A stretch of 46,117 nucleotides of DNA. It comes from an uncultured Treponema sp. Lineage in GTDB: Bacteria; Spirochaetota; Spirochaetia; Treponematales; Treponemataceae. Position numbers and translations under genes: made by a program. The stretch lies in contig CAMNBC010000004.1 in assembly GCA_946532115.1 (NCBI GenBank), forward strand, positions 1 through 46,117, given 5' to 3'. Shown here piece by piece: positions 10,027 through 31,962 of the stretch. Numbering within the stretch: position 1 is the first letter of the stretch; every line of letters begins with the position of its first letter. The notes under the pieces are model-generated. The model had not been told where the DNA came from. It saw only the letters and a list, made by a program, of their open reading frames with translations, and did not search any database.

Positions 10027-10141
10027 AGTCCTTTTATTATAATCCTAAAGAGATATTTTTTGTGGAAAATATATAACTTTTTTCTATAAATTAGTCCAAA
10101 TCTAATAACTTTCTGAGTCCATCAGCCCTGTGGCTTACTCT

Positions 10142-10654: not shown

Positions 10655-10681
10655 ATTATTTCTCCCTCTAGTCCTATTTTG

Positions 10682-11305
10682 TTAACATGCACACTGATTT
10701 GCTAAATTGAAGCAGTCATTTATATCTTCCTGAAGATCAAAAAACTGGCTCATGTAAAGTTTTAATTCTTCTTTTGTTTCTACCTTCTTAAAGGCCTGTT
10801 CTGCTTGTTTTTTAAGCTGCTCAAATTTGTCTGCCCTATCAGAATTGATGAGTGACATATCAACTTCACCTACCCGAACAGATATCTCACGGTCTTTAAG
10901 AATTGAAAAATCAAAATCGAAGTTAAACTCTTCTGCACAGAAGGGACCTTCAAGAGCATCCTTAAACTTTGAAACTTTATAAAGGTCTGCAGCTAGACTC
11001 AGAAGCATTCGCTTTTTGTTATAAGGCAGAAGTGTATAAAGATGATTGCGAAGACCGGCAAAAGGATTGTCTGTTACAACGAGCACTCCAGTTCTACGAA
11101 GTTTGCAGGCAAGCTTTCTTGAAACACTGCGCATTAAGCGATAAAGCTTTGATAGAGAAAGCTTGTTTAGTTTTGTAAAGCGCTTGTATTCAGGAAGCAA
11201 CACATCATTAAGAGTAACAAATTTTTCGGCAATGCTATAAAGCATAAGTTTAACGTAAGCATCAGTTTTCTTTGTTGTTTTGTTCTTGTTCATTACAAAT
11301 CTCAT
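10682..11305 (-). CDS. uncharacterised 207-aa protein
   Basis: AAGGAG sits 9 bp before ATG at 11305. A GTG two codons earlier is too close to that site, so the ATG is preferred. The protein is rich in Lys and Leu and has no membrane segment. The N-terminal half is basic (SLSKLYRLMRSVSRKLACKL) and could bind nucleic acid or a partner. The C-terminal half is acidic and ends in NQCAC. No family is recognised. It starts 13 bp after the 162-aa gene stops, so the two are probably co-transcribed. Confidence 0.6.
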   Translation of the reverse strand: MRFVMNKNKTTKKTDAYVKLMLYSIAEKFVTLNDVLLPEYKRFTKLNKLSLSKLYRLMRSVSRKLACKLRRTGVLVVTDNPFAGLRNHLYTLLPYNKKRMLLSLAADLYKVSKFKDALEGPFCAEEFNFDFDFSILKDREISVRVGEVDMSLINSDRADKFEQLKKQAEQAFKKVETKEELKLYMSQFFDLQEDINDCFNLANQCAC

Positions 11306-11318
11306 ATTCACACACTCC

Positions 11319-11807
11319 TTAATTGTTTTTATTTTTCTGGTTTTCCTTAGTTTCCAGATATTCTAACATTTCATCCCAAATTGGGAGTTTTGACAGTTGG
11401 ATTGTGGCAAAGTCTTCCATCAAATCTCCATCTACTCCCTGAAAGAATGCTTTCCAATCAAACTCTTTTTCAGACTCTTTTGAATCTACTATATTCATTA
11501 TTTCATCTATCAGTTCATCTCCCTGAAGTTTTTCGAGTGCATAACCGCTTTCCTTAGAACAGTAGTCTTGCCAAATAAAACGCTTTCCTGTATAAAGCGC
11601 GACAGTGCTTTCCGGAATCTTATATTCCTCTGCAATTCGCTTAAGTTCAGTTCTAATAAAGCTTCGCTCTTCTGCTCCTTTGAAAATCTCTTCCAAAAGC
11701 GTAAAATCATACTTTATATTTTCAGTTGTGTTGTCAGGTTTTGATTTTGTTGTGATTTTTGAGTCCTTTGTTCTCTTAATAATTGTTCTAATTTTTTCTT
11801 TCTTCAT
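11319..11807 (-). CDS. uncharacterised 162-aa protein with possible helix-turn-helix
   Basis: TAGGAGGTAGCTT precedes the ATG at 11807. A basic N-terminal tail is followed by FIRTELKRIAEEYKIPESTV at about residues 50-69. This reads like a helix-turn-helix with the turn at 'YKIPES' and could be DNA-binding. The C-terminal half is acidic (FDWKAFFQGVDGDLMEDF) and may mediate a protein contact. The family is not recognised. It is the first of three small minus-strand genes leading towards addBA. Confidence 0.55.
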   Translation of the reverse strand: MKKEKIRTIIKRTKDSKITTKSKPDNTTENIKYDFTLLEEIFKGAEERSFIRTELKRIAEEYKIPESTVALYTGKRFIWQDYCSKESGYALEKLQGDELIDEIMNIVDSKESEKEFDWKAFFQGVDGDLMEDFATIQLSKLPIWDEMLEYLETKENQKNKNN

Positions 11808-11973
11808 AAGCTACCTCCTATTAAAATTGTTTTATAAAAGGCCACCTGCGACCTTACTCACCTTCCCTAAATTTTCAAAAACCCTTTACTTCTTTCTCAC
11901 AAAAAGCAAAAGAGTAATATAGTGCGAAATGTCTTGGTGTAAAACTTTTGAGGAAAATAAATTGTGTAGCTTT

Positions 11974-13512
11974 TTAATGTTTTAAAACATCCCCCAGCGT
12001 ATAATAATCCCCTTCATCCTTTTTAGGCGGATAAATCATATCGCTGAGTCTGACTGCAGCCTGGTGAAGCTCTTGGGGAGTTATGCTGAAAATTTCATTT
12101 GTAAAATAAAACTTTGGGTCCTCTTGAGAAAGCAGAAAAGAAAAAATGATGTATCTTATTGAAAGAAGATCTTTTTCAGTAAAATTATAATCGACTATTT
12201 CCTTGAAGCATTTTTTTATGGCTTCTATTGTTTTTTCTGGCTTATCGGTTGAAACAGAAGCTATGACAAAATCCGCTGGATATTTATAAAAAAATCTACC
12301 ACCATAAATTCTGCCAAGTTTTCTAAGCTTTCGAGGAATATAATATTGCAAAAAGAACATCAGGGCATATTCAGAATAATATTCCCGACTTAACAATTGA
12401 GAAGCTCGCAAGATGATACTGCAGGATTTTTTATCTATCTCTGTATAAACATCAGGATGCTTTCTATCTCTGGCAACTATTTCCCATTTGTGACCTTCAA
12501 AATCCTTCCACAGACTTTCTTCTAAATTATCATTATTTAAATCATAATCAAGAATATTATGAGGAGCCATTATTTTATACGCAGTCTCGCGCAAGTCCCG
12601 TGCCTGCCATTCATGCAGTTTTTCTAACTTACTCTGATATTCCTGGGGTGTAAAATTTGAAAGATATTCCGAAATGATTTTTGGTATAGATTTTTTGGGA
12701 GGAAGAGGTTCTGGAGTGAAGGTTTCATTATTTACCGACCAGTAATCCGCAAAACTTTCAGAAACCTTACGGTCAGCTACTTTTTGCAAAAATTCTTTAA
12801 TTGTAAGAGCCTTTTGTTTTTCCGACTTTCGAGCTTTAAACTTTTTTTCCAGTTCTGGAATAAACTTATCTACCTGCAAAAGTACATCATCTAAGGCTGC
12901 CGTGCCCTCATAATTAAAAAGACAATTGTCGGGTCTGTAATACTTTTTATGATATTCTCTGATTTTATCATTTGTAAGTTCATGAAGTTTATAATAGATT
13001 CCCCCAACACAATAGGTTTCTGGTGGTCTACTTCTCATCTCATTATAAACAACACCCATAATGTCTTTTTTCCGACCATCTCCCTCTGGATCAAAATCTA
13101 CATGAAAGCATTCCTGCAAAAAGGCTTCTTCTGTAAGTCTTGGGAAAAAAACATAATCTGCTAATATGGAAATTAATTTAAAGACTTCAGCTTCATCATT
13201 TGAATTAAAAAAATAAGTAGTACTATATTCATCAGTAAAAGCATTACTTGAAGAAAATAAAGCAAAGCGCTGCAATTCCCATATATCAACATCATACTTC
13301 TGAGACCCTTTCAAGACACAATGTTCTAGCACATGGCTGGTTCCCAGATACTGCTCCTCTATAGGAGTCCTGAAAGTAAATGAGAATCCAGATTCCCAAG
13401 TTTCATACTGATGATATGCAATTTCGAGTCCAGTTTTTTTGTGTCTGAGATAAGACCAGGTTTCTTTGTCTTTTTGAAAAGTCTCCAGTAATTCGTAATC
13501 GTTGTTACACAT
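11974..13512 (-). CDS. M16C-type zinc peptidase, half-length
   Basis: The 512-residue protein has the inverted zinc motif H60-V-L-E63-H64 in GTSHVLEHCVLKGS and a third ligand Glu158 in VVYNEMRS. The spacing matches the presequence-protease (M16C) branch. The motif FSSSNAFTDEYSTTYFFNS is also typical. M16C enzymes are usually about 1000 residues, with a catalytic and a non-catalytic half joined by a hinge. This one stops after roughly the first half (GDYYTLGDVLKH) and no second half is adjacent. It may dimerise like M16B enzymes, or it may be a reduced form. No good ribosome site is seen before ATG 13512, so the start is uncertain. Confidence 0.75.
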   Translation of the reverse strand: MCNNDYELLETFQKDKETWSYLRHKKTGLEIAYHQYETWESGFSFTFRTPIEEQYLGTSHVLEHCVLKGSQKYDVDIWELQRFALFSSSNAFTDEYSTTYFFNSNDEAEVFKLISILADYVFFPRLTEEAFLQECFHVDFDPEGDGRKKDIMGVVYNEMRSRPPETYCVGGIYYKLHELTNDKIREYHKKYYRPDNCLFNYEGTAALDDVLLQVDKFIPELEKKFKARKSEKQKALTIKEFLQKVADRKVSESFADYWSVNNETFTPEPLPPKKSIPKIISEYLSNFTPQEYQSKLEKLHEWQARDLRETAYKIMAPHNILDYDLNNDNLEESLWKDFEGHKWEIVARDRKHPDVYTEIDKKSCSIILRASQLLSREYYSEYALMFFLQYYIPRKLRKLGRIYGGRFFYKYPADFVIASVSTDKPEKTIEAIKKCFKEIVDYNFTEKDLLSIRYIIFSFLLSQEDPKFYFTNEIFSITPQELHQAAVRLSDMIYPPKKDEGDYYTLGDVLKH

Positions 13513-13585
13513 AATGAAATAATGTTAAATGCTCTAGTTCCTTTTAGAATTAGTCTTAATTGAATCATCCACCAGATTTTGTTCA

Positions 13586-15022
13586 TTAGTCATATAATCC
13601 CTCTTTTCCCTCAATGAAAGATTTAATACGCCTAATGAACTCATTTTCTTGCTCTTTAATTGAGCCATCATTCCCCGGATCACAAACCGCAAAAACACCA
13701 AATTTTGCTGGTGCATCATCAATAGAGTACATCTGATCCACATTATTAGTATGTTTGTCGTATGAAACTTTTGTTGGATAAATTAATCCTGCACCACAAA
13801 AATTATCTTTATTCTTCAATGAATAATAATAAGAATATGCATGAAGTTGCCTAATATCGTTATTATCTACATCATCATATGCTTTATCAAATCTCATGGA
13901 CTTAAATTTAGCATCAAAAACAAAAATCCTTCCATTTTTTTTGTTAATTAAAACCAAATCCGGCCTATTATTCTTGTGATAAAAAGTCCCATCATAAAAT
14001 GATATAACCGTTTGAGCATTAACGTTCCAATCCGGAAGATTTAATCTCAGCAAATTATACAGATACATTTCCCAAAGGAATGAAGCATCAATGAGATAAC
14101 CGCTAACCCCATTAATTTTAGTATTTTTACCAGAATTTAAATCATCGTTATTTAGTAATACTTGAGCATATTGAAGTGGACGCTTAAAATCGGAATATAA
14201 ACTATTCAATAATACTTTCTCTTTGAGAATATTTTTTATTATTCCTTTAGAACATTTTTTGTGAGAATAATTGTCCTTTAAATATATTTTCAAGCGAGAA
14301 ACCTCTGGTAATTCTGAACTTTTACTTATTTCACACTTTTTAGTTGCTTCATAAAGGACATCAATTATGTTTTGAATATCTTTCATTGTTTGATATTTAT
14401 AAGTAATTTTTTTATCAAACATTAAAATATCATTATTAACATAGTCTTCGATATCAATCTCGCCCTTAATATCATATCCACGATCTTTCTCAGTAATATA
14501 CCTTTTAGGAAATGACTTGCTAGCAACCTTCCTTAAAGACATTAAAAACAAGTACTGTATTAACAATGAATATATACTTTCGTTTTCTGAAGTAGATCCT
14601 TTTACACTAGTGTCTGCGTATATACCACAACAGTAATTGAGTATTCTTTTAAAGAATAGTTCACTCACACCTGTAGTAATTTCAATACTCGGTATCTTTT
14701 CCCCAAAATATACCATTCCACAATATAACCCGGTTGAAATAGTATATTTGTCATTTTTTTGTTCTATTCTAAATATCAATTTTTCACGATCAGAACTAGA
14801 ATCATTTTTGAAAGCACCATAATTATCTAACTTAATAAGTTCAAATTGATTACTAGTATCTAAAGAAGCAAAATACATCTTTTTATCTAAAAGCTTTTTG
14901 CAAGCTTCATCAATTTTACTGTCATTTTTTACGCTGTTTTCTATAAGTATTTTTCGAGAATAGTCAAAATCGTAGAATTGAGTATAAATTGTAGTTTTTA
15001 AGCTTAATGTTTCCGTTGCCAT
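13586..15022 (-). CDS. mcrC: McrC-family restriction endonuclease subunit
   Basis: The 478-residue protein has a C-terminal PD-(D/E)XK nuclease: FLWEMYLYNLLR at 315-326, RPDLVLIN with Asp355, and FVFDAKFKS with Asp370 and Lys372, then a QLHAYSYYY helix. This is the McrC/LlaJI nuclease pattern. McrC is the cutting subunit that docks on the McrB GTPase ring in type IV restriction. It starts 11 bp after mcrB on the same strand. All nuclease residues appear intact. Confidence 0.85.
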   Translation of the reverse strand: MATETLSLKTTIYTQFYDFDYSRKILIENSVKNDSKIDEACKKLLDKKMYFASLDTSNQFELIKLDNYGAFKNDSSSDREKLIFRIEQKNDKYTISTGLYCGMVYFGEKIPSIEITTGVSELFFKRILNYCCGIYADTSVKGSTSENESIYSLLIQYLFLMSLRKVASKSFPKRYITEKDRGYDIKGEIDIEDYVNNDILMFDKKITYKYQTMKDIQNIIDVLYEATKKCEISKSSELPEVSRLKIYLKDNYSHKKCSKGIIKNILKEKVLLNSLYSDFKRPLQYAQVLLNNDDLNSGKNTKINGVSGYLIDASFLWEMYLYNLLRLNLPDWNVNAQTVISFYDGTFYHKNNRPDLVLINKKNGRIFVFDAKFKSMRFDKAYDDVDNNDIRQLHAYSYYYSLKNKDNFCGAGLIYPTKVSYDKHTNNVDQMYSIDDAPAKFGVFAVCDPGNDGSIKEQENEFIRRIKSFIEGKEGLYD

Positions 15023-15033
15023 CAGTTTCTCTT

Positions 15034-16833
15034 TTAAATTCCGAAAGCTTCTCTTGCTTTCTTTAATGTGTTTTCCACTTCTGTTTCATCTACAATTTGT
15101 CTAATATATTCTTTGATTGTTCCAGCTATATAGTTTTCAAATACTGATTTTTTCTTATCCGCCGTTATTTTTTTACTTCTCGAGTAAATTTGTTCGCTGA
15201 CTTTTAAGAAGAATGAATGGCCTATTTCATAATTTTTACCTAGCTTTAATCCATCTTCACAAATAAAATCATTAAGTGATTTGCATGATCCAACATATTC
15301 ATCGACATTACATTGATCTTCAACTTGATGAATTAATACATCGTTGATTACATCGTAATTACAGTATTTTGTAATCCATTTAAATCTTCTTCTTAATGCC
15401 AAATCAAATGCATCAATACTTCTGTCAACATCGTTCATGATTCCAATGAAATGGATATTAAAAGGTATTCCGAAAACAACTTCACCATTTACCCTTTTAT
15501 AAATTAAATTATTCTCATTTCTGGCTTTTACTACAGATGATAAAGCTGTAGTAATTAAATTGTTATTTATGTTTTTATAACCATCTTTAGGTTTTGAAAA
15601 GTCATAATCTCTATAATCTTTTTCTAATAAAGTAAAAGTCTCTCCGAAGATATTAGAAAGATTTCCTCTGTTTATTTCATCAACAACAAAATAATAATGT
15701 GGCCAATCTTTAATATTTGTTGGTCTTCCTTTGTCGTCATTTTCACAGTTGTGTTTATCAAAGAAATCTTCATTTTCTTTTCTAACTTTTATACAAAAAT
15801 CTTTTAAAGAGCCATTAACAACATCTAATTTCAAATTGCCATTATTATCAATGCCTAAAGGCTTGATCCCTTCAATGAAGTCCTGGTATGAGAAAGATGG
15901 ATGAAATTGTATATATTTCTTCTCTTTATATTTATTAGAGTCGATCTTTTGAAGTTTTTCTATTCCTTTTGAAACTCCGAACGTTTTACCTGTCCCTGGA
16001 GCGCCGTTAAATATTACATTTATATTATTAAAATCTGACAATTCTTTCGTATTGTAGCTAGAATCACTTAAGAATAGTAAGAAACAATAAAGCTTAATAT
16101 AATTTTCTTTTGGATCTGATTCATTAATTTCTGCATAGTCCTTTGCAGCTAAATATACTTTTGTATTCTTTTCAAGGAAAGTTTCACAATCACTTGTATC
16201 AACTTCCAAAATAGAAGCAAGAACCGAAGTTGCATCAGTATCTTTATCACCAAAAAACCACATAAATGCATGCTTATAAGGAGAATCATCCATGACAGAA
16301 CATAAAATAGAAATTTTTCTAAGAATGGCCTTGCAACTAAAATTTTTATAAGTTTCTTCTTTTTCAATTTTATATATATCACCCAATTCCTTTGCAGAAG
16401 CAATTTCTTTTAGTAAACATTTTATATTTGTATCATAATCGTTTTCTAGTTCAGATTTGTTCTCAATCATTTTGTTATTCTGTGCATAAACATTGGTATA
16501 TTTGTTTTTTCTTGAGGCATCTTTAATACCGGTGTACTGATAAATCATCACCTGATCATAGTTGCCAATTCTGGAATGCCCAAATTTTTGTTCTTTGGTA
16601 TCCAAAAAATCAGGCAAATATCCATTATCATTTTTCAACCATCTATCTAATTGCAATCCATCTGGTGAAACTATTTCATCATAATAAGTTTTCCAATTTT
16701 TAACGGAAGCATCCCATGCCCCTTCGTCAAAATATCCAGCCTCACTATTTGCATTAAATTTATCAAACATTGATTTAAATTCATCTTTATTCATATTTGC
16801 CTCGTAATCGTTGTTTAAGTTTCTGATTTCCAA
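15034..16833 (-). CDS. mcrB: McrB-family AAA+ GTPase
   Basis: The 599-residue motor subunit has Walker A GAPGTGKT at 277-284, Walker B YFVVDEINRGN at 381-391, and the McrB signature MNDVDRSIDAFDLALRRRF at 466-484, a variant of MNTADRS with the arginine finger. McrB uses GTP to translocate and to activate McrC. The N-terminal 270 residues have no obvious DNA-recognition domain. That role may belong to the separate upstream protein. The gene lies 8 bp downstream of the specificity candidate and 11 bp upstream of mcrC. Confidence 0.87.
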   Translation of the reverse strand: MEIRNLNNDYEANMNKDEFKSMFDKFNANSEAGYFDEGAWDASVKNWKTYYDEIVSPDGLQLDRWLKNDNGYLPDFLDTKEQKFGHSRIGNYDQVMIYQYTGIKDASRKNKYTNVYAQNNKMIENKSELENDYDTNIKCLLKEIASAKELGDIYKIEKEETYKNFSCKAILRKISILCSVMDDSPYKHAFMWFFGDKDTDATSVLASILEVDTSDCETFLEKNTKVYLAAKDYAEINESDPKENYIKLYCFLLFLSDSSYNTKELSDFNNINVIFNGAPGTGKTFGVSKGIEKLQKIDSNKYKEKKYIQFHPSFSYQDFIEGIKPLGIDNNGNLKLDVVNGSLKDFCIKVRKENEDFFDKHNCENDDKGRPTNIKDWPHYYFVVDEINRGNLSNIFGETFTLLEKDYRDYDFSKPKDGYKNINNNLITTALSSVVKARNENNLIYKRVNGEVVFGIPFNIHFIGIMNDVDRSIDAFDLALRRRFKWITKYCNYDVINDVLIHQVEDQCNVDEYVGSCKSLNDFICEDGLKLGKNYEIGHSFFLKVSEQIYSRSKKITADKKKSVFENYIAGTIKEYIRQIVDETEVENTLKKAREAFGI

Positions 16834-16841
16834 GATTATAA

Positions 16842-17480
16842 TTATCTAACGTTGTTAATTATTCCATCAATAATAATCTTTGCACATTCCTGATTAAAAT
16901 AGAATAGATATCCTTCGTTTCCTTTTCCATTTTTATTAAATGGAGCAACCTTTTCAGGCTGTGCAGATAATAATTGTTCTTTAAGCTCGACAGGCTGAAC
17001 TGAATTCGCTAAATGTGCATACAAGGTGTGCAACAATCTTCCATGCTCAGGTTTATCTAAATCGTACGGCTTATCCGCATCACGAGCTTCACTCTGAGCT
17101 TCGCTTATTGCTGCCACTTGTTGATTAGTTTCATGAAAAATAATATCGCCCGTTTTTACATCTCCGATACTTTCCCAAAAACGAATAGTACGATTATCTG
17201 GAGAATGAGGGCAAAAAAGACAATTATTTTGCACTTCATTATTAAAAGATTTCGATTGAAAAACATAGAAAAAATTTGGTCTCTCTGTACAGGCAGTTTT
17301 ATAGGTATTGTCTGTTGTCTTTATTATCAATTTTTCTGAAACTAATTCAGAAATTGCATTCTGAATTTCCTCTTTATTATTTGTATTTCTGTTTGAAAAT
17401 AATTTAGTAATCTGATCTAAAGTAAGTTCTTCTCCGTAAGCCTTAAGAAGAATTCTAATTTTGTCTGTCATATTTGTCAT
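16842..17480 (-). CDS. winged-helix plus EVE/PUA-like protein, candidate specificity subunit of the McrBC system
   Basis: The 212-residue protein starts MTNMTDKIRILL behind TAGGAGT. The 17516 alternative start lacks a ribosome site. Residues about 1-70 look like a winged helix (LTLDQITKLFSNRNT). The rest reads FYVFQSKSF, then RFWESIGDVKTGDIIFHETN, with conserved Trp and 'GDIIF', as in EVE/YTH-like PUA folds that bind modified bases. Such domains are usually fused to McrB; here the module stands alone as the first gene of the operon. TATAAT at 17510-17505 is a plausible -10. The EVE assignment is inferred from pattern, not an alignment. Confidence 0.6.
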   Translation of the reverse strand: MTNMTDKIRILLKAYGEELTLDQITKLFSNRNTNNKEEIQNAISELVSEKLIIKTTDNTYKTACTERPNFFYVFQSKSFNNEVQNNCLFCPHSPDNRTIRFWESIGDVKTGDIIFHETNQQVAAISEAQSEARDADKPYDLDKPEHGRLLHTLYAHLANSVQPVELKEQLLSAQPEKVAPFNKNGKGNEGYLFYFNQECAKIIIDGIINNVR

Positions 17481-17701
17481 TTTTTTTACTCCTAATAATA
17501 TAAAATTATAACACACTTTATTAATTTAATCGTCATTTTTATGCCTATCAACGGCGCCTTCCCTAAAAATGTCAAAAAGCTTATAAGAACAAATTCCTTA
17601 TATATAGAATATACTTTTTTTAGACCAAATCTTCAAAAATTCGGGAAAAAACTTTGAAAAAAAGCTGAAAATCGTGTTTTCGCCAAAAAACATCCTACTT
17701 T

Positions 17702-18979: not shown

Positions 18980-19225
18980 TTATATCTCGTAGTAATACCG
19001 GTTTTGCATGTCCTTGGTTAGAGGAACGTGGAGTTCGTTCTTCATAGCTGTGATGACCTTGTACAAAACCTTTTCACTAACACCACAGGAAAAGGCGTTA
19101 GCTGGGTCGTGAAGATTTTTCAGCTTCAAATGGATTGAAAGCTCTCTTACTGTAAATTTGTAGCCTAACTTGAAAACATCATCTATTGCTTTGATTCTTT
19201 TGTATTCATCGACTCCGCAGGACAT
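18980..19225 (-). CDS. small winged-helix DNA-binding protein
   Basis: The 81-residue protein is read from ATG 19225, where TGAGGA gives a ribosome site; an upstream ATG at 19276 has none. The pattern RIKAIDDVFKLGYKFTVREL, then SEKVLYKVITAMKNELHVPL and NRYYYE, closely follows the N-terminal winged helix of YafY/WYL-type regulators. The WYL sensor domain is missing, so it is a DNA-binding module alone. It is divergent from a sigma-factor gene. Its own -35 (TTGAGA, 19284-19279) and -10 (TATAAT, 19261-19256) are 17 bp apart, and the -35 lies in a 19-bp palindrome, so autoregulation is likely. Confidence 0.65.
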   Translation of the reverse strand: MSCGVDEYKRIKAIDDVFKLGYKFTVRELSIHLKLKNLHDPANAFSCGVSEKVLYKVITAMKNELHVPLTKDMQNRYYYEI

Positions 19226-19255
19226 TTTTTCCTCATTAACAAAAAAGTTATAAAA

Positions 19256-19295
19256 ATTATAAATTAATTTGGGCATTTTCTCAAGCTGTGAGAAA
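19256..19295. promoter_or_regulatory. divergent control region with palindrome TTTCTCA-N5-TGAGAAA
   Basis: The palindrome TTTCTCAAGCTGTGAGAAA is at 19277-19295. On the minus strand TTGAGA and TATAAT (spacer 17) serve the small winged-helix gene; on the plus strand CTATATACT near 19301-19309 may be the -10 of the sigma gene. A nearly identical palindrome occurs at 37318-37336 (17 of 19 bases equal). Confidence 0.65.
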
Positions 19296-19338: not shown

Positions 19339-20160
19339 ATGGTAAGAGATTTTTTTAAGAGTGAGGGAGTATCACTTTATGGCGCTTCACTTGCACCACT
19401 TTCTAAAACAGAAGAGATGGAGCTGGCAAAGCTCGCTGCAAACGGTGACATGCAGGCCCGCGAAACCTTAATCCGCGCAAATATTCGTTATGCGCTTAGT
19501 TACGCAAAAACCTTTTATGGTCACGGCCTTTCAAATGAGGAGGTTGATGAAGAGGCTGTTATTGGGCTGATAAAAGCTATAGACCATTTTGATTATACAA
19601 AGGGTAATAAGGTTATCACACTTGCTAAAATGTACATCATGAATGAGATTGTCTCGTCCTGTAACAAAAGCGGCTATATCCAGCGCCAAAGTGATGAACG
19701 CCTTAGAATGATTTTGAAAATCAACAAGGCCTTGAAAAAAATCAATACAGACTGCAGCCAGGACCAGCTTATCTATAAGCTGTCTGTGAAAACTGGTTTT
19801 AATCAAAAGCTTATTTCTGAGCTTCTCGAAGAGACCCTTCCTTGCGTAAGCTTGGATGAAGCTGCTAATGGCGAAATGGGAGAATCGAAGCTTTCTATTC
19901 TCCCAGATACAGTTTCTTATACTCCAGAAGAAACTGCTATTTATCATGTACAAAAACAGTATCTTTATGAAAACCTAGGAAAGCTTGATATACTTGAAAA
20001 ACAAATCATCTGTATGCTTTATGGACTTAAACCATACAAGCGCCCTTACTCTCTTGCCGAAATTGGCAAAACCCTGGGCGAATCAAAACAGTACATCCAT
20101 TACATTAAACAAAGAGCTCTTGAAAAGCTTAAAGATAATATGAGTGGATTGGCAGCATAA
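19339..20160 (+). CDS. sigma-70 family RNA polymerase sigma factor
   Basis: The 273-residue protein has sigma regions 2 to 4. Region 2 runs from LSKTEEMELAKLAANGDMQA to NKVITLAKMYIMNEIVSSCN. Region 3 lies around residues 125-165. Linker 3.2 is CVSLDEAANGEMGE. Region 4 is LGKLDILEKQIICMLYGL with helix-turn-helix SLAEIGKTLGESKQYIHYIK. Region 1.1 is absent, so it is an accessory sigma. In region 2.4 the residues matching E. coli Q437 and T440 are Asn and Val, so its -10 preference should differ from TATAAT. GAAGGAGGAAT precedes the ATG. It is divergent from a small winged-helix gene, with a palindrome between them. Confidence 0.85.
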   Translation: MVRDFFKSEGVSLYGASLAPLSKTEEMELAKLAANGDMQARETLIRANIRYALSYAKTFYGHGLSNEEVDEEAVIGLIKAIDHFDYTKGNKVITLAKMYIMNEIVSSCNKSGYIQRQSDERLRMILKINKALKKINTDCSQDQLIYKLSVKTGFNQKLISELLEETLPCVSLDEAANGEMGESKLSILPDTVSYTPEETAIYHVQKQYLYENLGKLDILEKQIICMLYGLKPYKRPYSLAEIGKTLGESKQYIHYIKQRALEKLKDNMSGLAA

Positions 20161-20268: not shown

Positions 20269-22074
20269 TTAGTTCTTCCCTAAACACTTTTTTAAGAAGT
20301 CATAAGTCTCGCTCATTTTTTGCTCATTTGGCACAAAGATAAACATACCTTCGCGTCCTCGGGAAAGCAGGACTCGGTATGAGTTTTTTCGAATCTTATA
20401 TGGATCTTTTTGAGTTTTACTTCCAACCTTCAACTCCCACTTTCCATTCTCTCGAATAAAGTCATCACCCCAACACATGATTGGAAAATCCAATTCAAGT
20501 CCCTGTGCAGCAAACTCTGTTATACAACTTCGTAGTGAACAGCAAGAAAATAGACTGGATTTTTTATCCGCATACCATTGACCAGTAGATACCTTTCTCG
20601 TAGCAAAGTAAGAATTATCTATTCCATACTTTTCTAGATTTTTTGCTTTGGCAGAAGCAATCAATCCATATTTCTTTTCTGGTTCATTTTCATAACGCTG
20701 AGAAAAATACTCATTTGCTTTAGAAATATCTTGAATTAAATAGATTGGAAATTCCTTTAGGAGATTATTATCCTTTATAATCTGTTTTGCTGTATCTGCA
20801 TCACCATCAAGAACCGCATTAATCCATTTTGGTAATTGTAAAGCAGATTTAGAACGTAAAGAAGCACTAAGATTCAATTCATCAGCAATTGTAGGCTTCT
20901 CAAAGAACGAACTAATATGACTTGGACAACAGACTTCCCACGCTAATCCAGAAGCTTGAACTGCAGTATTCCATTGCCCGATTCCAGCCTCTTCTCCTGT
21001 ATTTATTTCCTGCCCTTCACCAATAAGGCCTACAAGAACAACACCATTCTTCTTTTTGGCAACATTCATAAAATCTCTTGGCTCAGAACAAGTACCACGT
21101 TTTGCCTTTGCAGTTTCATCATCCCAAGCTCTCTGTGCCTCGTCATAAATGATAATTGATTCTTTTGGAACAGCAGTTTTATTTCCACCATACGAAGTTA
21201 AAAATCCATTTACACTTGAAACAAAGTTCTTAGATTTAAGAACATACTGAAGAACTTCAACAAGAGGGCCATTTCCAGAAAGCATTACAGCATCTTGCTT
21301 AGTTTCAGAAGAATTATTAAAGGTAAACTGCAATCCAACCAATGTCTTACCAGCCCCTGGAACACCCGTTACAAACATCAAAAGATTTTTATGATTCTTT
21401 ATTGCTTCATCTGCCTTCTTCTGCATAAAGTCCAAAGTTTCATTTATCTTCAAACTCTTTGCAGTTCTAATTTGAGGCAACGGCTCATTATTAAAGAACT
21501 TTATAGCAGCAGAAAGAATTGTTGGAAGTGGTTGATATTCTCCTTCCAAAAATCCAATTGCATCAATTTCACAAGTATCCTCTTTGTATTTCAATAAGGA
21601 AGCAGCAAGTATTTCAGGACTTAAAATTTGAACATCATCATAAGTATCATTCTTATTCTGAGTTTTTGTAAGAACTAAGAATGGAACAACGGTTTTATCA
21701 AAACAATAGGAATGATATTCTCTTAAGTCACGAGTATAGCCTACTACCTGATCTATTTGAGAATGATGCTCTTCCGCATACTGCTTAAACTCAAGAACTA
21801 GAACCTTAGTTCCAGTCAAAAGAATTACATCTGGACGACGTCCCTCTTCACGTGGAAGGATATATTCAAGAATTACAATCCAATCTTCAGGAAGAGCTTT
21901 GAAGGAATCCTTCAAAACAGAGATTTCATTATTCCAAGCTCGTATTTGAGAATCTTCTGCCGGTTTATTATAAAGCTTTACGGCACCCTCTTTTAGACTC
22001 GTAAGAATATCCGCTTCTGAAGTTTTTAAAAATTCAGCAATAGTAGAATAAAAATAACAGTTTTGATTTGTCAT
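20269..22074 (-). CDS. DUF2075 DNA/RNA helicase-like protein with N-terminal PD-(D/E)XK nuclease
   Basis: In this 601-residue protein the N-terminal part has a nuclease-like pattern RRPDVILL (Asp82), then LVLEFKQY (Glu95, Lys97) and an IDQVVGYTRDL helix. Residues 232-244 carry Walker A FVTGVPGAGKT, and IIIYDEAQRAWDD at 308-320 is motif II. The C-terminus has LLSRGREGMFI, the motif VI-like end of DUF2075 (schlafen group-3-like) helicases. Such proteins occur in bacterial accessory regions and often with defence genes; the activity is not established. TATAAT at 22086-22081 lies six bases before the ATG, so the mRNA is probably leaderless. It is convergent with the sigma gene. Confidence 0.75.
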   Translation of the reverse strand: MTNQNCYFYSTIAEFLKTSEADILTSLKEGAVKLYNKPAEDSQIRAWNNEISVLKDSFKALPEDWIVILEYILPREEGRRPDVILLTGTKVLVLEFKQYAEEHHSQIDQVVGYTRDLREYHSYCFDKTVVPFLVLTKTQNKNDTYDDVQILSPEILAASLLKYKEDTCEIDAIGFLEGEYQPLPTILSAAIKFFNNEPLPQIRTAKSLKINETLDFMQKKADEAIKNHKNLLMFVTGVPGAGKTLVGLQFTFNNSSETKQDAVMLSGNGPLVEVLQYVLKSKNFVSSVNGFLTSYGGNKTAVPKESIIIYDEAQRAWDDETAKAKRGTCSEPRDFMNVAKKKNGVVLVGLIGEGQEINTGEEAGIGQWNTAVQASGLAWEVCCPSHISSFFEKPTIADELNLSASLRSKSALQLPKWINAVLDGDADTAKQIIKDNNLLKEFPIYLIQDISKANEYFSQRYENEPEKKYGLIASAKAKNLEKYGIDNSYFATRKVSTGQWYADKKSSLFSCCSLRSCITEFAAQGLELDFPIMCWGDDFIRENGKWELKVGSKTQKDPYKIRKNSYRVLLSRGREGMFIFVPNEQKMSETYDFLKKCLGKN

Positions 22075-22293: not shown

Positions 22294-22854
22294 ATGTACA
22301 TTGAACCACGTTTACCAGACCACACAGACATTTGGACTGCTAACCTCAATAGCAGAATTGTGCATTGTTTCGGCGACATCGAAGAAAACATGGCCGAAAG
22401 TATTGTCGCCCAGCTTTTGTATCTCGATGCCCAGAATCACGAAGACATTCAGTTTTACATTAACAGTTATGGGGGAGATGTTACTGCAGGTCTTGCCATT
22501 TACGATACCCTGCAGCATATACAAAGCGACGTTCGTACCATTTGCGTTGGTAAAGCCATGAGCATGGGAGCCGTTTTGCTAAGTGGCGGAACAAAAGGAA
22601 AAAGAAGTGTACTTCCAAATGCAACTGTAATGATTCACCAGGCACTTGGCGGTGCTAAAGGCCAGTCGTCAGACGTAGAAATTGAGGCAGCTGAATTGAA
22701 ATTCACAAAAGAAAGCTTGAATTCAATACTTGCCAAAAACTGTAACAAAAGCCTGGAAGAAATAACACACGATACTGACCGTAATTTTTATATTCATGGT
22801 GCAGAAGCAGTGGAATACGGAATTGTGGATTCTGTTTTAAATAAAAGACAATAA
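22294..22854 (+). CDS. clpP: ClpP-family protease subunit, catalytic Asp replaced by Asn
   Basis: The 186-residue protein has no propeptide. The ClpP fold is clear: INSYGGDVTAGLAIYDT at 57-73, nucleophile Ser90 in GKAMSMGAVLL, His115 in TVMIHQALGG, and EAVEYGIVDSVL at the end. The residue aligning with E. coli catalytic Asp185 (precursor numbering) is Asn164 (DTDRNFY). Ser-His-Asn is known from Listeria ClpP1, which needs a partner ClpP for full activity, so this copy may work in a mixed tetradecamer. It is followed 16 bp later by a two-domain AAA+ ATPase rather than clpX. CAGGAGAAAA gives the ribosome site. It is an accessory paralogue; a housekeeping clpP probably lies elsewhere. Confidence 0.88.
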   Translation: MYIEPRLPDHTDIWTANLNSRIVHCFGDIEENMAESIVAQLLYLDAQNHEDIQFYINSYGGDVTAGLAIYDTLQHIQSDVRTICVGKAMSMGAVLLSGGTKGKRSVLPNATVMIHQALGGAKGQSSDVEIEAAELKFTKESLNSILAKNCNKSLEEITHDTDRNFYIHGAEAVEYGIVDSVLNKRQ

Positions 22855-22870
22855 GCAAGGGAGAAATGAT

Positions 22871-25204
22871 ATGTTAAGACGAAGAATGATTCAGACTAAA
22901 GCAAATTTAATTCCAGCATCCTCTTTAAGTGATAACGACCTGTTTATTTGTATCTATTATTTTTATTGTTTCTGTGTCGTTGGAAAAGAAGACTTAAACT
23001 CACGAGAATGTACAGGTTTCTTTTGGTATCTAGTTCGAAGGTATAAAAAAGAAAAACAGATAGGAGATATTTTAGCTCAGCTTGTTGCAGAGTATGAAAG
23101 AAATGGTGAACTGCGTTTGCGTACCAAACATAGCGAAGATGAAAAGACTCCATTTTTTCGCAATACACAAATTCCAGCAAAATACACCTGTGATTTTTCA
23201 ATTAATCAAGATTTACCATGGGATGTAGATATTACCCAAGCTGATATTGATTTTGAGCGTTGTTTCTGCAAAGACGGTATTTCACTATTAATCGAGTTAA
23301 TTCCTATCTTGTTTTTTGATAAAGCTTTCTCCAAAGAAAACGAAATTAAGGATGAGTATGTTTTTTGGGATAGCACAGACAAGTCTATAAAAGCTTCTGA
23401 TTTCAAAACTAAATATGCAAAGCTGCTCAAAGATACAGGTAAGGTTCAGTTTTTAATGGATACAGTTGGCATTTCAGAAATTGAAGCAAGAGTTCTTCTT
23501 GTTTTATACAGATGCGAAACAATTCGACCTCTAGCACTTGCTTTTGAAAGTCTTCGTCCCATTTCTAATCTTGCTATAGAAGAAATCCTTGAATTATCTT
23601 CCAAAGATTTTAATTCTATCACTCACAAGAACAGTAAACTCAGAGCCTATGGTTTTCTCGATAAAGAAAAGAACCTCGACCCAGACATAAAAGAATGCAT
23701 AACAAATGGCTCCATAGATTCTTTCTTTGCAGATTTTGTACAAGAGCTTGATTGTTCTACTGCTTACAAAACAACTTCGTTCTCTGTACCTGCAGAGACA
23801 ACACAGATTATGAAACGTTTCCTTAATGGAGATATGAAATCATCTGTTCTTTTATATGGAAAACCAGGTTCTGGAAAAACTGAATATGCAAAAGCTCTGG
23901 TAAAAGAGAGCAAGCAAAGGGCTATGATATTCAAAAATGAAACAGAGCTTTACGGAGAAAACAAGGCCCTCTTCCGTCTCAATTGTTACCTTTCTATGAA
24001 AGGCAAGGATACAATTCTCATTATTGATGAAGCAGATAAGCTTTTGCAGACAAGAGATATAAACTCTTTTATGGGCACAATTCCAAATGTTATGAAAGGA
24101 ACTGTTAACAAGATGCTTGAGAACTCAAATTTCAAGACCATCTGGATTGTAAACTACTCTAATCAAATAGATGTTTCAACTAAACGAAGATTCAACTATT
24201 CTTATTGTTTCCAGGCAATGACAGAAAAGCAGCTTCGCAAAATTGCCTCAGATAAACTGAAGACCTTAAATTTGGAAAAAGAAACTTCGACTTCCATTCT
24301 CAATATGCTCGGAAAATATAAGGTTACAGGCGCTAGTGTTGATAACGTTGTTAGAGTTACAAAAGAAATGCACGAGCTGGAAAAGGACAAACTCCTTTTT
24401 ACAGTAGAAAATATCCTGCAGGAAAATGCACAACTGATAAACGGAAAAAGGTCTATGCGTCAGATTGTCGGTGAAGAATATGACCTGTCGATTTTAAATA
24501 CTTCTATTGAGGCTAAACAGATTCTTGAAATGACTCAGAATGCATTGGATTATGCAGAACGTCATGAAAATGCAAATAACGGTATCCGTATGCTTTTTTA
24601 CGGACTTTCTGGCACCGGAAAGACAGAACTTGCAAGATATATGTCTCAAAAACTTGGAAAAGACATTCTCTTAAAGCGTGCCTCAGATATTCTTGGAATG
24701 TATGTTGGTGAAAGTGAAAAAAATATCAAACAGGCCTTTGAAGAAGCTGAACAAACAAATTCAATTCTTCTCTTTGATGAAGCAGATTCATTCTTTGCAG
24801 ACAGAAATAATGCCCAGCACAGCTGGGAACGCACAATGGTAAATGAATTCCTTACTCAGATGGAAGAGTTCAAAGGAATCCTTATCTGTACAACAAACCT
24901 AAAACATATTATGGACAGTGCAATGCAGCGTCGTTTCAATTTTTGTGTAGAGTTCAAACCTCTTGAAAAAAGTGGTATCCAGACAATGCTTGAAAAATAC
25001 TTTCCTGAATACGGTTTTACTAAAGACGAAATAAAAACTCTGGAAGCAAGTGGCTCAATCACTCCGGGAGACTTTGGTTCTCTTTCTTCAAGAATCCGCT
25101 TTATGAATCAGGATAAGGTTAATTCTTCTGTTATCACAAAAGAATTAATTGACCTGCAGAAAGAAAAAAAGAATGGAAGTTTTTGCCAAAAGATGGGCTT
25201 TTAA
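22871..25204 (+). CDS. tandem AAA+ ATPase, candidate unfoldase partner of the adjacent ClpP
   Basis: The 777-residue protein has an N-terminal domain of about 310 residues with no recognised family. AAA module 1 has GKPGSGKT at 330-337 and ILIIDEAD at 382-389. AAA module 2 is of the Cdc48/FtsH-like classical type, with GLSGTGKT at 578-585, pore-loop YVGESE at 611-616, LLFDEADS at 633-640 and RR finger at 687-688. The pore loop suggests substrate threading. The protein ends KMGF; Met-Gly-Phe resembles the Ile/Leu-Gly-Phe tripeptide by which ClpX and ClpA dock on ClpP, though it is terminal here instead of in a loop. The gene follows clpP by 16 bp with GGGAG, and its last codons hold the -35 of the next gene's promoter. 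A role with ClpP is inferred from position. Confidence 0.75.
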   Translation: MLRRRMIQTKANLIPASSLSDNDLFICIYYFYCFCVVGKEDLNSRECTGFFWYLVRRYKKEKQIGDILAQLVAEYERNGELRLRTKHSEDEKTPFFRNTQIPAKYTCDFSINQDLPWDVDITQADIDFERCFCKDGISLLIELIPILFFDKAFSKENEIKDEYVFWDSTDKSIKASDFKTKYAKLLKDTGKVQFLMDTVGISEIEARVLLVLYRCETIRPLALAFESLRPISNLAIEEILELSSKDFNSITHKNSKLRAYGFLDKEKNLDPDIKECITNGSIDSFFADFVQELDCSTAYKTTSFSVPAETTQIMKRFLNGDMKSSVLLYGKPGSGKTEYAKALVKESKQRAMIFKNETELYGENKALFRLNCYLSMKGKDTILIIDEADKLLQTRDINSFMGTIPNVMKGTVNKMLENSNFKTIWIVNYSNQIDVSTKRRFNYSYCFQAMTEKQLRKIASDKLKTLNLEKETSTSILNMLGKYKVTGASVDNVVRVTKEMHELEKDKLLFTVENILQENAQLINGKRSMRQIVGEEYDLSILNTSIEAKQILEMTQNALDYAERHENANNGIRMLFYGLSGTGKTELARYMSQKLGKDILLKRASDILGMYVGESEKNIKQAFEEAEQTNSILLFDEADSFFADRNNAQHSWERTMVNEFLTQMEEFKGILICTTNLKHIMDSAMQRRFNFCVEFKPLEKSGIQTMLEKYFPEYGFTKDEIKTLEASGSITPGDFGSLSSRIRFMNQDKVNSSVITKELIDLQKEKKNGSFCQKMGF

Positions 25205-25249: not shown

Positions 25250-26110
25250 ATGACAGAATACTTTAATGATATTGGGAATATCTCTTTACTCACTCAGGAA
25301 GAAGAAATTGAACTTGCCAAGAAGGTTGAAATTGGCGGTATTCAGGGAAAACTTGCATTCGATAAACTTGTCTCTGCAAATTTACGTCTTGTTGTTTCCA
25401 TTGCTAAAGATTACGCAAAAAAAGGAATTCCTCTTGAAGACCTGATACAGGAAGGAAATATTGGTTTGATGCACGCTGCTCAGAAATTTGAATGGGACAA
25501 AGGCTTTAAATTTTCTACCTACGCTTCCTGGTGGATTCGCCAGGCTATCACAAGATTTCTGGATGATAAAAAAGATTCCATTAGAATTCCAATTCATAGA
25601 CAGCAGCAGATTAATAAATACAAAAACGAAGTCAGTTATCTCAAACAGAAATTAGGCAGAAATCCAACTGATGCAGAGCTTGCTCAAAGCCTGGGATGGA
25701 CTCAAGAACAACTAAATAAAATTCGAAATGCAAGCTTAAAAACAATTTCTTTGGATAAGTCCTATGGAAATGGAGATAGTGACCAAGATTACACCCTTGC
25801 AGACTTTGTGGAAGAAGATAAATACGATAATCCTGAAAAGGCAACCTACAACAAACTCATTAATTACCAGTTGCAAAAAGACATGGACACTTTCCTTACA
25901 AAAAAGGAAAACCTGGTAATAAGAATGCGTTTTGGTTTTGATAATAATGGGACAACACAAACTCTAGAAGAGGTTGGAAATTATTTAGGAGTTACCAGAG
26001 AAAGAATTCGTCAAATTGAAGGAAATGCTATTATAAAACTTCGCCACCTCTATAGAAACAGAGGCATTGAGTTTTCTGATTGTATTGGGGCAGTAAAAGA
26101 GGATGCATAA
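25250..26110 (+). CDS. RpoD-like (group 2) sigma factor without region 1.1
   Basis: In this 286-residue protein region 2 is nearly canonical (LEDLIQEGNIGLMHAAQKFE, then FSTYASWWIRQAITRFL), keeping Gln and Thr at the positions that read -12. Region 3 follows (KQKLGRNPTDAELAQSLGWT), then linker TISLDKSYGNGDSDQDYTLA and region 4.2 (TLEEVGNYLGVTRERIRQIE). It should read promoters close to the TTGACA/TATAAT consensus. CTGGAGGCAAT gives the ribosome site. It follows the AAA gene by 45 bp and has its own TTGCCA-class promoter, so another sigma may switch it on, making a cascade. Confidence 0.9.
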   Translation: MTEYFNDIGNISLLTQEEEIELAKKVEIGGIQGKLAFDKLVSANLRLVVSIAKDYAKKGIPLEDLIQEGNIGLMHAAQKFEWDKGFKFSTYASWWIRQAITRFLDDKKDSIRIPIHRQQQINKYKNEVSYLKQKLGRNPTDAELAQSLGWTQEQLNKIRNASLKTISLDKSYGNGDSDQDYTLADFVEEDKYDNPEKATYNKLINYQLQKDMDTFLTKKENLVIRMRFGFDNNGTTQTLEEVGNYLGVTRERIRQIEGNAIIKLRHLYRNRGIEFSDCIGAVKEDA

Positions 26111-30260: not shown

Positions 30261-30333
30261 TTATTATGTTATAATGACTAAACACGGGGCTTAAAAATGT
30301 CAAATGATATTCTAACGATTGAAGAAAAAAATG
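30261..30333 (+). repeat. promoter and 5' end of LRR gene, also present inverted at 28163-28235
   Basis: It includes TTATTATGTTATAATGACTA, with TATAAT as a likely -10, and the first codons of the 322-aa LRR gene. See the inverted partial copy 2 kb upstream. Confidence 0.7.
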
Positions 30334-31265
30334 GTGAAATTATAGTAACAGATTGCAAAAAAGACGCAATTAAAGTGGTAATTCCAGACAATGTTACACA
30401 AATAGGAGAAGCTGCATTTGAAGACTGTAAAAGACTTAATTCAATTGTGATTCCAAGTAGTATCACTAAAATAAGAAAAAGTGCATTTTGTAGTTGTAAA
30501 GCTCTTAAGTCAATTGTAATTCCAGACAGCGTTACTCAAATTGAAACACAAGCCTTCATACATTGTATAAAGCTTAAATCTATTGTACTTCCAACTAATA
30601 TTACTAGAATAAGGGAATATACATTTTGTAATTGTAAAGCTCTTGAATCAATTGTACTTCCAGACAGTGTTACTAAAATAGAAAAATACGCATTTTGGAA
30701 TTGTAAAGCTCTTAAATCAATTATAATTCCAAGTGGATTGACTAAAATTAGTGAATGTACGTTTTGCGGCAGTGAATCACTCGAATCCATTGAAATTCCT
30801 GTCAGAGTTACAAAAATTGAAGATAGTGCATTCTTAGGTTGTTTTTCACTTAAATCAATAGATATACCTGACAGAGTTACAAAAATCGAAGATAGTGCAT
30901 TCAGTTATTGTACTGCACTTAGATCAATTAAACTTCCTAATAGTATTACTCATATAGGAAACCATGTTTTCAATCATTGTACATCGCTTGAATCGATAGA
31001 AATTCCAAATAATATTATTAGTATTGGCTCTAGAGCATTTGCGAAATGTACAGCACTTAGACCTAATTCTGTGGTGTATAGAGGAACGGCAGCGCAATGG
31101 AAAAAAATAAAAATAGTGCCTCCTTTTTATGCTATGAATCAAGGTATGAATGATATTCTTTCTGGAAGTTCTGAACAAAAAGTATGTTGTATGGGAAGTG
31201 ATGGAAATGGTGTTACACCAATATGGCTAAATGAAGAAGAAAAGGATGTTTCAAAAGACTGGTAA
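30297..31265 (+). CDS. BspA-like leucine-rich repeat protein, 322 aa
   Basis: About ten regular 23-residue LRR_5 repeats span residues 28-262, each of the type SAFxxCxALKSIVIPDSVTKI, with matching 69-bp repetition at DNA level. A short N-terminal cap (MSNDILTIEEKNGEIIVTDC) and a C-terminal cap (VVYRGTAAQWKKIKIV), the latter also found in the 453-aa LRR protein, frame the array. No signal peptide is seen. High DNA similarity between repeats allows repeat gain or loss. The ribosome site is weak (GGGGC, 8 bp away). It is convergent with another LRR gene across a shared terminator. Confidence 0.88.
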   Translation: MSNDILTIEEKNGEIIVTDCKKDAIKVVIPDNVTQIGEAAFEDCKRLNSIVIPSSITKIRKSAFCSCKALKSIVIPDSVTQIETQAFIHCIKLKSIVLPTNITRIREYTFCNCKALESIVLPDSVTKIEKYAFWNCKALKSIIIPSGLTKISECTFCGSESLESIEIPVRVTKIEDSAFLGCFSLKSIDIPDRVTKIEDSAFSYCTALRSIKLPNSITHIGNHVFNHCTSLESIEIPNNIISIGSRAFAKCTALRPNSVVYRGTAAQWKKIKIVPPFYAMNQGMNDILSGSSEQKVCCMGSDGNGVTPIWLNEEEKDVSKDW

Positions 31266-31276
31266 ATATCAATAGC

Positions 31277-31314
31277 ATAAAAAGAGGCTGTTTATTTTTA
31301 GACAACCCCTTTTT
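31277..31314. terminator. bidirectional terminator between convergent LRR genes
   Basis: AAAAAGAGGCTGT and ACAACCCCTTTTT form an imperfect stem with A and T tails on both sides. It serves the plus-strand gene ending at 31265 and the minus-strand gene ending at 31318. Confidence 0.7.
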
Positions 31315-31317
31315 AAG

Positions 31318-31962
31318 TTACCAATTATAAATATATTTTTTTACATGCGTGTGCGATTCAAATGCCTTTGCTGGTATTTGTTTAAAATTTATACCAGAAG
31401 GAATGTAAACCTCTGTTAATGATGGACAATCTACTGCTGCAAAGTTATCAATCGCCAAAATGCTTTCTGGCAATGTAAGTGACTGTAGCTGCGGTAAATC
31501 TTCAAAGGAATACTCAAGAAGTATTTCTGGCCCTTCTGGAACAGTTATGCTGGTAGCGGTTTTGTTGAGGCAGGCCATAATAATCTTGTTTTCTACGAGG
31601 ATATCCGGGATGTCCCATACACCATCCAGACAGGATACTACGCTGTTCATTGGAATACATTTCAGGAGGTTCACTTTGCCTGTAATGGATTCGAATTCCT
31701 TCTTTGTGCCCATATAATGAATTTGAATTGGTTCAAACTGCACTGAAAATGTATTTGGATAGATCTCTTTTAGGCTCCTGGGAATTTCAAGGGATGTAAT
31801 TGTACATTCCTGAAACGCCGTATATACATTATTTTCATCAGCTTTGATTCTTTCTACTATCGGATAAATAACTATATTACCATTCGCGTAGCAGTGAAGC
31901 AGTTCTCCATCAATTACTATGCAATCATTGAAAACACATTCATCACCATAGATGTTATTCAT
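31318..31962 (-). CDS. BspA-like leucine-rich repeat protein, 214 aa
   Basis: This is a shorter, less regular LRR_5 protein. Residues about 55-85 (ITSLEIPRSLKEIYPNTF) and 140-200 (ITVPEGPEILLEYSFEDLPQ, then LTLPESILAIDNFAAVDCPS) fit the family, with an atypical cap between. AAGGAGTAG precedes the ATG. It ends KKYIYNW; the two genes upstream on the same strand also end in Asn-Trp. It is the last of three minus-strand genes 32700 to 31318. Confidence 0.75.
   Translation of the reverse strand: MNNIYGDECVFNDCIVIDGELLHCYANGNIVIYPIVERIKADENNVYTAFQECTITSLEIPRSLKEIYPNTFSVQFEPIQIHYMGTKKEFESITGKVNLLKCIPMNSVVSCLDGVWDIPDILVENKIIMACLNKTATSITVPEGPEILLEYSFEDLPQLQSLTLPESILAIDNFAAVDCPSLTEVYIPSGINFKQIPAKAFESHTHVKKYIYNW

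Follow-up and report, generated by a model that had tools for sequence, protein, structure and literature searches.

As an antibiotic target, ClpP has been studied widely, and the bacterial partners that are known for it to date are, to our knowledge, Clp/Hsp100 ATPases with internal IGF loops. The binding sites of these loops are hydrophobic and lie between ClpP subunits, and loop flexibility lets six-fold rings act on seven-fold rings (PMC9035409). Here we describe a locus from an uncultured Treponema species in which a clpP gene is followed by the gene for an AAA+ ATPase of a non-Clp type. The stretch analyzed, hereafter the window, is one entire contig of 46,117 nucleotides (G000:C4) from a Treponema-type metagenome genome (2.45 Mb, 284 contigs, 73% complete). 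The clpP open reading frame (ORF) lies at 22294-22854 and encodes 186 amino acids, the ATPase ORF lies at 22871-25204 and encodes 777 amino acids, and both are on the + strand with a gap of 16 bp. An earlier, sequence-only reading of the window described these ORFs exactly as they are found, and the two AAA modules that it saw in the longer product correspond to two PF00004 domains.

We consider it likely that the 777-residue protein serves as unfoldase in an ATP-dependent protease of the Clp type, with a chassis that resembles Cdc48 and not Clp/Hsp100; it would dock on ClpP through C-terminal IGF tails. Comparison of its homologues points toward a class of ClpP-feeding machines, so far undescribed, that is present in several bacterial phyla and spread on mobile DNA. 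No description of C-terminal IGF docking in non-Clp AAA proteins was found in the open literature searched, a scope that excludes preprints and most subscription journals.

A conserved C-terminal tail of the ClpP-docking type

The ATPase ends in ...CQKMGF-stop, as the sequence-only reading had reported. The tail (25169-25201, + strand) consists of a hypervariable linker, residues 767-774, and the ClpP-docking-type tripeptide Met-Gly-Phe, residues 775-777 (25193-25201). Homologues of the protein, termed family A, came from four sources: 45 carriers among 146 genus genomes, 80 loci on GTDB contigs, 46 carriers among 296 genomes of the phylum, and plasmids and phages. Tail counts refer to non-redundant full-length copies, and the strict motif is defined as [IVLM]G[FL] no more than eight residues from the end.

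Across 48 aligned Spirochaete proteins, the structured part ends in an invariant column (K766), and the eight columns that follow are near-random (∼2.4-3.5 bits) with gaps. The tripeptide columns of the same proteins hold Ile in 37, Val in 9 and Met in 2, then Gly in all 48, then Phe in 45 and Tyr in 3, with zero to six residues before the stop codon. This fixation of the Gly and near-fixation of the Phe, set against near-random linker columns with insertions and deletions, places the tripeptide beyond chance. All 92 readable tails at the level of Treponema carry the motif (87 as [IVLM]G[FL] and 5 with GY), the sole exception being a frameshifted fragment. Among the further Spirochaetota, 17 of 22 copies are strict matches, and the others comprise three with TGF, one with the motif further in and one that is frameshifted.

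Tailed copies also occur far from this phylum. Thirteen of 16 plasmid and phage copies have the strict motif and two more have it further in, with carriers that include Desulfosarcina, Fuscovulum, Novosphingobium, Diaphorobacter, Azospirillum, Croceicoccus, Rhodoferax, Pseudomonas, Paracoccus, Pantoea, Methylomonas, Leisingera and a gut phage; alpha-, beta- and gammaproteobacterial plasmids are among the sources. Distant relatives with 25-32% identity are mostly tail-bearing. A scan of viral contigs gave three weak relatives only. Because the motif is retained across this distance behind a drifting linker, the alignments indicate that selection maintains it as a short linear motif.

The tripeptide resembles that of established ClpP partners. 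Housekeeping ClpX of the same genus has a ClpP loop of the form (I/L/M)-G-F-G, and a ClpC-type protein of the window genome has VGFG. The residues that occupy the first position of the tail (Ile, Val, Met and rarely Leu) form the same set as in these loops. Of 31 control proteins that came up in the same searches, 12 of IetA grade and the rest FtsH, Cdc48 and other AAA proteins, none has the tail, and it is likewise missing from all other AAA proteins read in the window genome, whose own copy of the second family described below ends at a contig edge just before the tail.

This second family, family B, was recognized from a 552-residue AAA protein with the terminus RKIGF, encoded in the same gene row in another genome (G031). 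Its members have a single AAA module and an N-terminus distinct from that of family A, occur in 50 of the 146 genus genomes, and are found on plasmids of Bacteroidota and Campylobacterota as well. The tail is present in 31 of 33 copies. The two copies that lack it (L140/L070 and L176; L140:1400-3115 and L176:4987-6666) lie immediately 5′ of a tailed family-A gene, an arrangement that suggests a joint A/B machine for which one tail is enough. Conservation of the terminal tripeptide, one of the two points on which the sequence-only reading had staked its proposal, therefore proves nearly universal within the family, extends across phyla and recurs in a second AAA family. Two sets of matches were kept as outsiders: those on haloarchaeal plasmids, which are true Cdc48 proteins (PF02359) without the tail, and Serratia pE53, a tailless single-module AAA protein with a winged-helix domain.

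Domain organization of the ATPase

The protein has a helical N-domain (residues ∼1-290), a first AAA module (∼300-520), a second (∼530-768) and the flexible tail (769-777). The two PF00004 domains (E=1.6e-41) are the best match; a match to AAA_2 reaches just E=3.9e-05, below the cut-off of that profile. Walker A and B motifs are intact in both modules. The Walker A sequences are GKPGSGKT (residues 330-337; 23858-23881, +), which is invariant or nearly so in two alignments (A1 and A2), and GLSGTGKT (residues 578-585; 24602-24625, +). The second module also has the Y611-V612-G613 pore loop (24701-24709, +) noted in the sequence-only reading, which has the canonical aromatic-hydrophobic-Gly form; G613 is invariant and V612 nearly so.

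An AlphaFold2 monomer model built from 48 homologues has a mean predicted local distance difference test score (pLDDT) of 85.6 and a predicted template modeling score of 0.67. A C-terminal helix (752-768) is followed by residues 770-777 with pLDDT below 50. Given this predicted disorder, a packed structural role for the tail was judged unlikely, with the limit that the model is of a monomer and contacts between subunits are possible. The ATPase part superposes on p97, Rix7, NVL and Cdc48 with Z of ∼20 over ∼450 residues (Foldseek, VIA-align). The second module alone superposes on PAN and Rpt subunits with Z of ∼19, and since several of the Rpt alignments extend to model residues 776-777, the tail is predicted to exit the ring where proteasomal docking tails do. 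The likeness to such tails that had been proposed from the sequence is thereby strengthened. The nearest curated profile of the second module is IetA (E ∼1e-35 to 1e-42), as is the nearest PADLOC profile. Its earlier description as Cdc48/FtsH-like is borne out as far as Cdc48 is concerned, with Cdc48/p97 and PAN/Rpt as the nearest structures. The FtsH part is loose in view of these structures and of the IetA profile, and was rejected because the FtsH proteins encountered have no tail.

The accessory ClpP

The sequence-only reading was correct in placing a ClpP beside a non-Clp AAA protein, but the housekeeping enzyme is not what is encoded here; the gene product is an accessory paralogue whose triad is Ser-His-Asn. 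It matches PF00574 (1.2e-66), falls below the TIGR00493 equivalog cut-off, and represents a third ClpP type, which 6 of the 274 family genomes carry. All 63 good-quality genus genomes sampled carry ClpP and most list two. A near-identical sister genome (G479) has two ordinary ClpPs besides the accessory one.

Ser90 (22561-22563, +) and His115 (22636-22638, +) align with the catalytic S97 and H122 of Escherichia coli ClpP, and Asn164 (22783-22785, +) takes the place of the catalytic Asp (D171N). This Ser-His-Asn triad is shared with L160 and L046/L182, whereas the ClpPs of L076, L077 and L195 have Ser-His-Asp. In Listeria, ClpP1 has the same Asp-to-Asn change and forms heptamers that are inactive alone but are active with ClpP2 in a mixed barrel (PMC5361862). 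Because the triads agree, a mixed barrel is suggested here too, and by this analogy the window ClpP probably assembles with the housekeeping ClpP.

The N-terminal axial segment is ∼7 residues shorter than that of mature E. coli ClpP, and alignments to solved ClpPs begin at residue 11-12 of the window protein, which corresponds to chain residue 17-19. In the docking pocket, four positions are changed relative to E. coli (L23N, Y60Q, F82H and F112S), and L48, Y49, Y62, I90, L114 and L189 are kept or conservatively replaced. A pocket with these changes may or may not be competent; the notion that it is destroyed was dropped, as the closest solved ClpP (8qyf) also has His at position 82 and the Treponema housekeeping ClpPs, too, have polar residues at position 60.

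Proposed mechanism and alternatives

In the mechanism that we favor, the ATPase would form a hexamer with two stacked AAA rings, and the Tyr-Val-Gly pore loops of the second ring would pull and unfold the substrate. Six flexible tails would reach from the exit face, such that the terminal (I/V/M)-G-F could enter hydrophobic pockets of ClpP, the same pockets that are filled by the internal IGF loops of ClpX and ClpC. The partner in most family members would be the host housekeeping ClpP. At four loci, that of the window included, a ClpP gene has on this view been captured beside the AAA gene, and a ClpP of the window type, with its Ser-His-Asn triad and short N-terminus, would probably act in a mixed barrel with the housekeeping enzyme, like Listeria ClpP1 with ClpP2.

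Several observations weigh against this reading. A clpP gene adjoins the AAA gene in just 4 of the 80 Spirochaete loci. The tail is inherited within each family, such that its conservation argues for selection and not for the identity of the bound partner. IetA, the best curated relative of the family, pairs with a different protease. Finally, the accessory ClpP differs from Treponema housekeeping ClpP at three pocket positions, with N for L at 23, H for Y at 82 and, in two of three, S/C for F/Y at 112, and direct docking on a ring of accessory ClpP is uncertain for this reason.

The first of these points rules out ClpP adjacency as a defining feature of the family, and the co-occurrence that the sequence-only reading put up for testing is accordingly not general. 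Since most homologues have no clpP neighbor, the argument rests on the tail and not on the neighborhood, and family members would as a rule work with the housekeeping ClpP of the host. Adjacency is nonetheless not random. All six accessory ClpPs of the subfamily adjoin an AAA gene that belongs either to family A or to the family-B lineage. When adjacency is mapped onto a quick tree of the AAA proteins, it requires four changes, each forced by well-supported branches, and was thus gained four times independently. In the window clpP comes first, whereas L160, L182 and L195 have the order AAA-clpP. Moreover, ClpPs that are 75-82% identical sit beside AAA proteins of only 43% identity, from which it follows that the pairing has been made repeatedly. 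This ClpP type occurs in two more genomes (G060 and G113), where the neighbor is a 411-residue family-B relative that has lost Walker A and B and ends in SGGFLAK. This gene lies 31 bp 5′ of the accessory clpP (L076:232-1464 and L077:232-1464; relatives of the same kind are found at L104:5223-6458 and L105:7460-8695), and the arrangement is that of a pseudo-ATPase paired with a protease subunit.

The same facts can be read otherwise. The ATPase might dock by its tail on the host housekeeping ClpP only, with the accessory ClpP an independent passenger of the island that has a role of its own. The two ordinary ClpPs of the sister genome fit this account, as do the divergent pocket and the Ser-His-Asn triad of the accessory ClpP and the many tailed homologues that have no ClpP neighbor. 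A passenger, however, would not be expected to sit beside a family-A or family-B-lineage AAA gene in all six cases, in both gene orders and after four separate gains, and we regard this account as unlikely. It is improbable, in our judgment, that the terminal (I/V/M)-G-F makes no contact with ClpP and instead packs on the AAA ring from subunit to subunit or binds some other partner, the protein being a non-proteolytic remodeller. Conserved C-terminal elements stabilize the rings of several AAA proteins, contacts of this kind are compatible with the monomer model, and IetA, the closest curated relative, is a tailless defense ATPase. Yet a linker that is hypervariable in both sequence and length, leading into a disordered tail, is what a tethered docking motif would show, and not what a packed element would. 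ClpX loops moreover have this motif with the same permitted substitutions, it is missing from IetA, FtsH and Cdc48, and the adjacency to ClpP is repeated.

A degenerate or silent island, in which the accessory ClpP is inactive by virtue of its triad Asn and the pair has no proteolytic function, seems very improbable. Family-A copies are broken in some other genomes (L052, L187 and L198), and the AAA neighbor without Walker motifs in G060 and G113 could be taken in the same sense. Against such decay, the window locus keeps the ATPase motifs of both AAA modules and the Ser and His of ClpP, and the sister genome retains the whole pair at 97% identity amid other flanks. The Asn itself is compatible with function, given that Listeria ClpP1 with the same substitution is active in the mixed ClpP1/ClpP2 barrel (PMC5361862).

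We therefore return to tail docking on ClpP as the preferred explanation. The new type of ClpP unfoldase that had been proposed from the window sequence is well supported by the conservation of the tail, as far as sequence comparison reaches, and finds no support in the neighbors of most homologues. If the proposal is true, the ClpP pocket would be a general socket into which mobile DNA can plug, proteasome-style tail docking would be united with the Clp system, and many genes that now carry only the label "AAA family ATPase" would gain a testable function.

Genomic surroundings and mobility

A likely ribosome-binding site, AAGGGAG, precedes the AAA gene (22857-22863, +), and 45 bp 3′ of this gene begins an ORF for a 286-residue RpoD-like sigma factor (25250-26110, +). 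The trio of ClpP, AAA and sigma factor genes recurs at 97% identity in the related genome G479 (locus L119), where the sigma factor counterpart is at L119:5611-6483. The flanks of the two loci differ, with a 601-residue helicase of the window (20269-22074) swapped for an unrelated 134-residue ORF, and this indicates that the three-gene unit lies in a variable region. The helicase, on the − strand, belongs to Schlafen group 3, has a NERD-like N-terminus and gives a strong match (7e-132) to the PADLOC candidate PDC-S41. A distinct second sigma-70 factor (19339-20160, +) lies on the other side of the clpP-AAA pair, and sigma-70 factors are found in 17 of the 80 Spirochaete loci.

A WYL-domain regulator is a recurrent neighbor of family-A genes, present in most of the plasmid loci read and in 17 of the 80 Spirochaete loci, of which many lie on short contigs. 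In the window, a 98-residue ORF (18980-19276, −) is akin to the N-terminal helix-turn-helix part of these regulators and looks like a truncated WYL gene. Other neighbors are PD-(D/E)XK nucleases, ADP-ribosylglycohydrolases, toxin-antitoxin genes and transposases. Together with IetA as the nearest PADLOC profile, the WYL, nuclease, toxin-antitoxin and transposase neighbors suggest that the family-A module is mobile, regulated and perhaps defensive. It would move in variable, often WYL-regulated islands, and upon induction would probably degrade specific proteins, perhaps those of incoming elements.

A broader possibility, which we put forward tentatively, is that families A and B constitute a phylum-crossing group of ClpP unfoldases with a C-terminal tether, which travel on plasmids, on a phage and on mobile islands under WYL control. 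These would make either the host ClpP or a captured accessory ClpP, the latter in a mixed barrel, into an inducible protease that might serve as a defense effector. Rings of A and B could co-assemble where the two genes follow each other directly, the tail then being retained by A only.

Further along the window, a co-directional block (4112-17516, −) encodes a PD-(D/E)XK nuclease protein, an M16-type peptidase, an McrBC component and several proteins without assigned function, and is likely a restriction or defense block. A FliM-like protein (PF02154 and PF01052; 17762-18928, +) is also encoded, and no flagellar gene was recognized among the neighbors scanned; a few related loci (L120 and L129) seem to have such an ORF too. 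BspA-type leucine-rich-repeat proteins are encoded at 30297-31962, and repeat ORFs of this sort lie near family-A genes in 10 of the 80 loci.

Comparison with known systems

Judged by the defining features that were compared, the 777-residue protein is not a member of Clp/Hsp100, Cdc48 or IetA. With IetA of the IetAS anti-phage system (NF042959; PADLOC PDLC02196) it shares the pairing of an AAA ATPase with a separate protease, and IetA is the closest profile to its second module. However, the protein scores 122.6 bits against a curated NCBIfam cut-off of 510, IetA has a single AAA module, and the tail is missing from all 12 IetA-grade proteins examined. There is also no IetS-type subtilase among the scanned neighbors in the window, where ClpP is found instead. 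Cdc48, p97 and VAT have the same tandem pair of classical AAA modules, but neither CDC48_N domain (PF02359 or PF02933) is among the 25 matches listed for the window protein, whereas the haloarchaeal control L265 has both.

The accessory ClpP likewise has a close counterpart with distinct features. Listeria monocytogenes ClpP1 also has Asn for the catalytic Asp and an altered N-terminus, and needs ClpP2, in a mixed barrel, to be active (PMC5361862). The window ClpP, in contrast, belongs to a small Treponema subfamily that gene order links to a non-Clp AAA gene.

HslU shows that a bacterial AAA+ unfoldase can dock on its peptidase via C-terminal tails, but its tail, its peptidase (HslV) and its AAA family are all unlike those of family A. 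PAN/Rpt, archaeal VAT/Cdc48 and the actinobacterial Mpa and Cpa are closer in having modules of the Cdc48/PAN type, and docking by a tail on a barrel peptidase would give the same geometry. Their tail is nevertheless HbYX and their peptidase the 20S proteasome, whereas the family-A tail is (I/V/M)-G-F followed by zero to eight residues, and its peptidase would be ClpP. With ClpX, ClpA and ClpC, family A shares an AAA+ unfoldase architecture, a pore loop and an (I/L/V/M)-G-(F/L) tripeptide. It differs in having classical modules of the Cdc48/PAN type (PF00004) and a helical N-domain of its own, and its gene is not beside tig-clpP-clpX. The tripeptide of the Clp ATPases sits in an internal loop of the ClpP-proximal module, whereas that of family A sits on a flexible linker at the extreme C-terminus, zero to eight residues from the stop. 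By analogy, a flexible C-terminal tail would serve as well as an IGF loop to match a six-fold ring to a seven-fold one.

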